NCBI RefSeq assembly: GCF_035974275.1 | Contig: NZ_CP142422.1 | Coordinates: forward strand, 3,348,001 to 3,412,000 | DNA: 64,000 bases | Source of the DNA: Chryseobacterium sp. MYb264 | GTDB lineage: Bacteria > Bacteroidota > Bacteroidia > Flavobacteriales > Weeksellaceae | Direction: 5' to 3' | Shown here: piece after piece, positions 14,462-16,195 of the stretch | Layout: every line of letters begins with the position of its first letter | Numbering within the stretch: position 1 is the first letter of the stretch | Program-made: the position numbers and the translations under genes | The notes under the pieces: model-generated | The model's input: the letters and a program-made list of their open reading frames with translations, nothing else | Database searches by the model: none | What the model was told of the DNA's origin: nothing

Positions 14462-14676
14462 TCGTTATAATTTTAAATTTTAAATTGAAAATTTTAAATG
14501 CTTTTTAAATCTAAAATCTATAATTTATAATCTAAAATCTCTCTATCCCTATACTAATTTCTAGTGGGTTTTATATTTTTTATATAATCAACCAAACAAA
14601 AAACTAAAGCTTTACTTTAAGTAAGTACTTGTGTATCTTGCGATACTAATTTTGTTTAACGTCTAAAGACGCTCTA

Positions 14677-16195
14677 AAATGAGATGTTCCAGCCGCACCT
14701 TCCGGTACGGCTACCTTGTTACGACTTAGCCCTAGTTACCTGTTTTACCCTAGGCAGCTCCTGTTACGGTCACCGACTTCAGGTACCCCAGACTTCCATG
14801 GCTTGACGGGCGGTGTGTACAAGGCCCGGGAACGTATTCACCGCGCCATGGCTGATGCGCGATTACTAGCGATTCCAGCTTCATAGAGTCGAGTTGCAGA
14901 CTCCAATCCGAACTGAGACCGGCTTTCGAGATTTGCATCCTATCGCTAGGTAGCTGCCCTCTGTACCGGCCATTGTATTACGTGTGTGGCCCAAGGCGTA
15001 AGGGCCGTGATGATTTGACGTCATCCCCACCTTCCTCTCTACTTGCGTAGGCAGTCTCACTAGAGTCCCCAACTTAATGATGGCAACTAGTGACAGGGGT
15101 TGCGCTCGTTGCAGGACTTAACCTAACACCTCACGGCACGAGCTGACGACAACCATGCAGCACCTTGAAAATTGTCCGAAGAAAAACACATTTCTGCGTC
15201 TGTCAATTCCCATTTAAGCCTTGGTAAGGTTCCTCGCGTATCATCGAATTAAACCACATAATCCACCGCTTGTGCGGGCCCCCGTCAATTCCTTTGAGTT
15301 TCAAACTTGCGTTCGTACTCCCCAGGTGGCTAACTTATCACTTTCGCTTAGTCTCTGAATCCGAAGACCCAAAAACGAGTTAGCATCGTTTACGGCGTGG
15401 ACTACCAGGGTATCTAATCCTGTTCGCTCCCCACGCTTTCGTCCATCAGCGTCAGTTAAGACATAGTGACCTGCCTTCGCAATTGGTGTTCTAAGTAATA
15501 TCTATGCATTTCACCGCTACACTACTTATTCCAGCCACTTCTACCTTACTCAAGAACTGCAGTATCAATGGCAGTTTCACAGTTAAGCTGTGAGATTTCA
15601 CCACTGACTTACAGATCCGCCTACGGACCCTTTAAACCCAATAAATCCGGATAACGCTTGCACCCTCCGTATTACCGCGGCTGCTGGCACGGAGTTAGCC
15701 GGTGCTTATTCGTATAGTACCTTCAGCTACTCTCACGAGAGTAGGTTTATCCCTATACAAAAGAAGTTTACAACCCATAGGGCCGTCGTCCTTCACGCGG
15801 GATGGCTGGATCAGGCGCTAACCCATTGTCCAATATTCCTCACTGCTGCCTCCCGTAGGAGTCTGGTCCGTGTCTCAGTACCAGTGTGGGGGATCACCCT
15901 CTCAGGCCCCCTAAAGATCAATGACTTGGTAGGCCGTTACCCTACCAACTATCTAATCTTGCGCGTGCCCATCTCTATCCACCGGAGTTTTCAATATTAA
16001 TTGATGCCAATCAATATATTATGGGGTATTAATCTTCCTTTCGAAAGGCTATCCCCCTGATAAAGGCAGGTTGCACACGTGTTCCGCACCCGTACGCCGC
16101 TCTCTCTGTCCCGAAAGACAAATACCGCTCGGCTTGCATGTGTTAGGCCTCCCGCTAGCGTTCATCCTGAGCCAGGATCAAACTCTCCATTGTAT
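14677..16195 (-). rRNA. rrs: 16S ribosomal RNA with altered anti-Shine-Dalgarno tail
   Basis: About 1.52 kb. The 5' end reads CAATGGAGAGTTTGATCCTG; the 530 loop, GTGCCAGCAGCCGCGGTAAT region, the 900 loop and the 1400/1492 decoding region are all recognisable. The 3' terminus reads GGCTGGAACATCTCATTTT on the minus strand (14676-14694), where most bacteria have GGATCACCTCCTTA; the CCTCC core is absent. Ends estimated by homology. Transcription is from promoters upstream at 16334-16488. Confidence 0.97.

Follow-up and report, generated by a model that had tools for sequence, protein, structure and literature searches.

The 16S rRNA of Chryseobacterium sp. MYb264 ends in a tail that very probably represents the alternative anti-Shine-Dalgarno UCUCA of the Chryseobacterium/Weeksellaceae clade, kept as a receptor for the rpsU message. 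The tail is the same in all rRNA operons of the genome, the rpsU leader matches it, the sampled genes have no comparable motif, and tail and leader covary in relatives. The UCUCA tail combined with a matching rpsU leader is an already known clade marker: it has been published with the covarying rpsU for Chryseobacteria and related Flavobacteriales and is credited there to Jha et al. 2021 (PMC8710568, PMC9976891), and altered tails in some Flavobacteriales were mentioned in an earlier, sequence-only reading of this DNA. What is added here is a comparative series, composed of a UCUCU class, motif-less UCUCA lineages and a pattern of tail drift, for which absence from print is not claimed.

The 16S rRNA gene and its 3′ end

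The window, i.e. the whole stretch of 64,000 nucleotides that was analysed, carries on its minus strand the 16S rRNA gene (14677..16193; Rfam RF00177, full length, 1509.6 bits), the spacer genes for tRNA-Ile (GAT, 14387..14461) and tRNA-Ala (TGC, 14222..14296), both detected by ARAGORN, and the genes for 23S (11310..14064, Rfam RF02541) and 5S rRNA (11026..11133, Rfam RF00001). Two matches to Flavo-1 RNA (Rfam RF01705) were registered in the same window, at 1332-1420 on the minus and 17189-17277 on the plus strand, one of them about 1 kb past the 5′ end of the 16S gene. Direct reading of the minus strand gives the 19-mer GGCTGGAACATCTCATTTT at positions 14694..14676 as the 3′ end of 16S rRNA. 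Its core, nucleotides 1535-1539 in E. coli numbering, is UCUCA (14680..14684, minus strand) versus CCUCC in E. coli, and the two substitutions stated in the sequence-only reading are indeed seen at 14684..14680. Base 1532, which is U in E. coli 16S rRNA, is A in the window; as a clade-specific change it was rejected because relatives with the canonical core have A1532 too. The extended tail ACAUCUCAUUUU (14676..14687, minus strand, nt 1532-1543) is exactly complementary to AAAATGAGATGT before rpsU, and this pairing suggests that the mature 3′ end may reach at least about position 14676. Directly 3′ of the tail, the centroid fold contains a small hairpin AGCGTCTTTAGACGTT (14658..14673, minus strand) with a GCGTC/GACG stem that is kept in two diverged operons (L006 and L007); it is possibly a processing signal.

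It is practically out of the question that this tail comes from faulty assembly or that the operon is a divergent pseudogene copy. The check for other operons with a canonical 3′ end, proposed along with the original observation, was carried out on the genome, which is a single contig of 5,234,367 bases: all seven 16S copies carry the identical altered tail and none is canonical, and this already refutes both variants of such an explanation. It is further opposed by the full-length match to the 16S model and by the same tail in 73 genomes of the family, the window genome included.

Complementarity between the tail and the rpsU leader

One bS21 gene (rpsU) was found in the genome, outside the window (G000:C1 2863507-2863704, minus strand). 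Its leader reads ...CCAAAATGAGATGTAATAT-ATG, where AAAATGAGATGT, at about 2863710-2863721, is the exact 12-nt complement of nt 1532-1543 of the genome's own tail; the compensating ATGAGA-type sequence for which inspection of this leader had been recommended is therefore present. The predicted pairing comprises 12 bp with an energy of -14.9 kcal/mol, as compared with a mean of -2.8 for shuffled sequences (0 of 200 shuffles were as strong), and falls to a predicted -4.8 kcal/mol if the same leader faces the canonical tail. Thus, the statement that the anti-Shine-Dalgarno had been lost is not supported. Its core is altered, but the tail was re-spelled together with one mRNA and the pairing with rpsU survives, and pure loss was rejected for the window genome on the basis of this exact complement.

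Translation starts of other genes

The sample of other genes covered the window plus 20 stretches at even spacing, 464 kb in sum, and consisted of the leaders of 309 ATG-first open reading frames of >=150 aa, a length that excludes rpsU. None of the 309 paired with the genome's own tail at -9 kcal/mol or lower versus two in the mock region, one versus three did so at -7 kcal/mol or lower, and the mean energies were -1.01 and -1.43, respectively. Control tails at the -9 threshold gave one leader versus three mock hits for the canonical sequence and one versus two for the reversed one. AGGAG was met in one leader (three in mock) and TGAGA in none (three in mock). The expectation that Shine-Dalgarno motifs are almost missing before starts holds within this sample, whose genes gave no sign of Shine-Dalgarno pairing. 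The leaders are enriched in adenine, with 51-57% A at positions -14 to -10 and 48-49% A at -6 and -3, which is in line with the A-rich start context described for F. johnsoniae (PMC9976891). Expression tools for Chryseobacterium-like bacteria would accordingly be better equipped with A-rich leaders than with AGGAGG.

A pattern search for the rpsU-type motif through the whole genome returned six matches versus 13 for the reversed-pattern control, i.e. no excess. The five matches besides rpsU do not resemble gene starts: four of them precede ATG frames of only 6-37 aa, and the ATG of the fifth lies inside a longer open frame. The prfB gene is a single uninterrupted frame of 372 codons without a programmed frameshift, as reported for Weeksellaceae (PMC8710568).

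Translation of most genes in the clade seems to begin independently of Shine-Dalgarno pairing, in which case general initiation would have no need of the tail. Very probably the tail is retained as the receptor for a single mRNA, that of rpsU, which encodes ribosomal protein bS21 and has the complement in its leader. Ribosomes lacking bS21 would expose the tail and pair with rpsU mRNA, giving more bS21, and ribosomes bearing this protein would hide the tail, thus closing a feedback loop. Experiments with F. johnsoniae, where bS21-lacking ribosomes favour rpsU mRNA via extended pairing (PMC9976891), make tail sequestration and bS21 autoregulation the most likely situation in the window organism as well.

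Alleles of tail and leader in the family and in the order

In the GTDB family of the window genome (f1, taken as Weeksellaceae) the tail was readable in 84 of 128 genomes, 81 of them by the exact pattern and three with one mismatch. By hand count, 73 of these tails are UCUCA, 11 are UCUCU and none is CCUCC. The leader pattern matched 127 of the 128 genomes; 126 were listed and the remaining one (G410) was read separately. After removal of surplus rows that clearly did not represent rpsU, the 126 listed leaders included 91 with TGAGATG, 14 with AGAGATGT, 17 without a motif and four with a partial one. When the two parts were joined by genome for the 84 with a tail (again by hand), TGAGATG preceded rpsU in 68 of the 73 UCUCA genomes and AGAGATGT in nine of the 11 UCUCU genomes, with no swapped pair among all 84. 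Among ten UCUCU-type records the tail could be read in four, all UCUCU, which apparently belong to the survey set already and are not independent.

The motif is absent in five of the 73 UCUCA genomes, so some relatives can do without this pairing. Misses within the family fall into genera g111 (three genomes) and g114 (two) and into genomes G269 (no motif) and G339 (partial motif). In G269 the loss of the motif is accompanied by the tail change C1533U, while motif and C1533 are both retained in the four congeners for which leader and tail were read. The rpsU leaders of g111 (L017, L028 and those of 12 other genomes) have AAAAAGAAATAGATA instead of the motif. Four rpsU leaders of genus g13 (L033 of G339 and three others) contain the half-decayed motifs AATAAGAG and AATAGATGT, and the only tail read in this genus, that of G339, carries a change at 1541, which gives the impression that the pairing is now being lost.

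Scanning of 393 genomes of the order with two patterns for non-canonical cores revealed CCUC followed by non-C in one genome and non-C at 1535 in 150. By hand count the latter belong to f1 (100), f15 (45), f10 (three), f6 (one) and f4 (one), where f15 consists of small symbiont-like genomes. None of the 120 genomes of f3 matched either pattern, some of them possibly being without an assembled 16S gene. Core alleles found outside f1 were CCUCA, ACUCC, UCUCC, UCUCU and UCUCA. Scattered tails of lineages without the rpsU motif (CCUCA, ACUCC, UCUCC, UCUCU) are what one would expect if the anti-Shine-Dalgarno had simply decayed and retained no function, and the lack of pairing enrichment in the sampled leaders of the window genome points in the same direction. 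Such decay is nevertheless very unlikely in view of the exact 12-nt rpsU complement in this genome, the prevalence of TGAGATG (68 of 73 genomes) among the UCUCA members of the family and covariation at three positions.

Covariation

The covariation set consisted of 80 genomes with 85 rpsU leaders read (L099, an additional bS21 copy in G071, was left out unparsed), and the full tail was available for 61 of the 80. For calculation of pairing energies the other 19 genomes were given the 14-mer of the window genome, and they were excluded from the covariation and rate tests. A leader was considered as motif-bearing if at least one of the 19 observed tails paired with it at -10 kcal/mol or better, which avoids circularity; by this cut the weak leaders of G013 and G339 (-8.3 and -6.3, respectively, with their own tails) count as motif-less. 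Among the 61 full-tail genomes 33 are motif-bearing, all matching their own tail at -13 kcal/mol or better, and 28 have no motif. In the 33 pairing leaders, nt 1535 forms C-G (12) or U-A (21), nt 1539 forms C-G (12), A-U (12) or U-A (9), and nt 1543 forms C-G (11), U-A (15) or A-U (5), plus a single U-G pair and a single mismatch. Positions 1532 and 1533 are without pairing in four of the 33 leaders, 1531 is mostly unpaired and 1544 covaries poorly.

Correspondence of this kind may also be conditioned by shared ancestry rather than selection. Leaders are near-identical inside each allele class, independent compensated changes on the tree are few (two or three in the core), and the independent-pairs test for tails departing from the canonical sequence has at most two informative pairs, which puts significance out of reach. 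Ancestry as the sole source of the match is, however, improbable, because three pair types occur both at 1539 and at 1543, none of the 33 motif-bearing genomes mismatches its own tail even though the motif was defined by pairing to any of the 19 tails, and motif-less lineages show that the match can be lost.

Motif loss and possible tail drift

To compare the rates of tail change, a quick 16S tree was built without the tail and rooted at the midpoint, and changes in nt 1532-1540 were assigned by parsimony; 0.18 branch units inferred to regain the motif (with no changes) were omitted. Branches with the motif accumulated two tail changes over 2.38 units (0.84 per unit), those without it or losing it 20 changes over 3.09 units (6.5 per unit), and the difference is characterized by p = 0.0008. 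This value rises to 0.0056 without f15, to 0.088 without f15 and f10, and to 0.15 if the comparison is made outside f1 as well. Besides that, the 20 motif-less changes include one at position 1539 that falls at the root; its placement depends on the rooting, and it may sit on the motif-bearing stem of f1. Moving it gives p = 0.0044 for all rows and 0.030 without f15.

Based on this data one can suppose that in Flavobacteriales the single gene rpsU holds the 16S tail in place. As long as the motif is present, the tail would move only together with rpsU, passing through no fewer than three alleles (CCUCC, UCUCA, UCUCU) and up to nt 1543, and once the motif is lost, it would become free to drift, with all operons following. 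The p-values weaken when lineages are dropped or the root-dependent change is moved, and this reading is accordingly given somewhat less than an even chance. CCUCC is still present in several motif-less lineages, so if the idea of drift is right, loss of the motif came first and drift followed. Both this sequence of events and the anchoring of the tail by one gene are suggestive, the latter being not proven.

Protein bS21 and other candidate partners of the tail

Tyr54 of F. johnsoniae bS21 stacks on A1534 and is called uniquely conserved in Bacteroidia (PMC9976891). In the window genome (L008:1474-1671, minus strand) residue 54 is His and A1534 is kept, so sequestration of the tail may differ in this organism, and membership of its ribosome among those of Bacteroidia that sequester the anti-Shine-Dalgarno is not claimed. 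His54 was found in 25 of 45 f1 genomes read, each with the UCUCA tail and the rpsU motif.

The order of cause and effect may also be reversed: its protein pocket, or else the assembly factor Era, would set the tail, with rpsU following whichever tail arises. Era contacts nt 1530-1539 (PMC8710568), and residue 54 of bS21 varies across the 80 genomes read, with His occurring only alongside UCUCA tails. At the same time, the tail changes faster where the rpsU motif is lost, although the influence of Era and the pocket would be expected in those lineages as well, which makes control by these partners unlikely, though less so than decay or mere common descent. Both directions could operate at once.

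Four genomes of f3 have two or three bS21 genes (L056, L078, L086, L088, L035, L080, L087, L097), of which a single gene is preceded by a strong AGGAGG leader, while the others have a weaker one or none; such paralogues may escape the feedback loop. A protein search for viral bS21 gave five loci. One is 100% identical to the host protein, has the same leader type and is probably host DNA. The other four (L373-L376), on contigs of 299-362 kb, are 46-52% identical, and a Shine-Dalgarno-like leader motif is absent before all four.

Relation to known systems

The anti-Shine-Dalgarno is among the most conserved RNA elements of bacteria, and it persists even in lineages that make very little use of it. 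The clade considered here offers natural exchanges of alleles (CCUCC, UCUCA, UCUCU) in which one mRNA matches the tail, as well as lineages where this mRNA has let go, which makes the reason for the persistence directly testable. The sections of the literature examined mention neither UCUCU paired with AGAGA nor a drifting tail in lineages whose rpsU has lost the motif, and UCUCA genera without the motif were likewise not met in them.

With the alternative anti-Shine-Dalgarno of Chryseobacteria the window genome shares the two-base core change, the full rpsU complement and a prfB without frameshift, and its tail and leader differ in nothing from those described in the sections examined. The published account of the clade, as given there, knows only UCUCA, with the complement “in all these organisms” (PMC8710568, PMC9976891), whereas our survey contains a class of UCUCU tails matched by a complement of their own, as well as UCUCA genera that have none. 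Autoregulation of bS21 in F. johnsoniae is similar in that rpsU has the sole strong motif, pairing over 12 bp with 16S nt 1532-1543 (PMC9976891). The tail of F. johnsoniae is, however, CCUCC with a GC-richer duplex, and its bS21 has Tyr54, in contrast to UCUCA and His in the window genome (PMC9976891). Predicted pairing of motif-bearing leaders ranges from -17.5 to -22.0 kcal/mol for CCUCC tails versus -13.3 to -15.7 in the window's family. Surveys of CCUCC-less, Shine-Dalgarno-poor organisms name Chryseobacterium, Riemerella, Elizabethkingia, Weeksella or Blattabacterium (PMC10783764, PMC6107228), and no variant anti-Shine-Dalgarno perfectly complementary to a variant Shine-Dalgarno is reported in the sections of PMC6107228 examined. 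Genome-wide motif methods could miss a complement carried by one gene. In the sections examined, these surveys treat such genera as cases of loss (PMC10783764, PMC6107228), while the tail studied here still matches rpsU and should not be termed lost.
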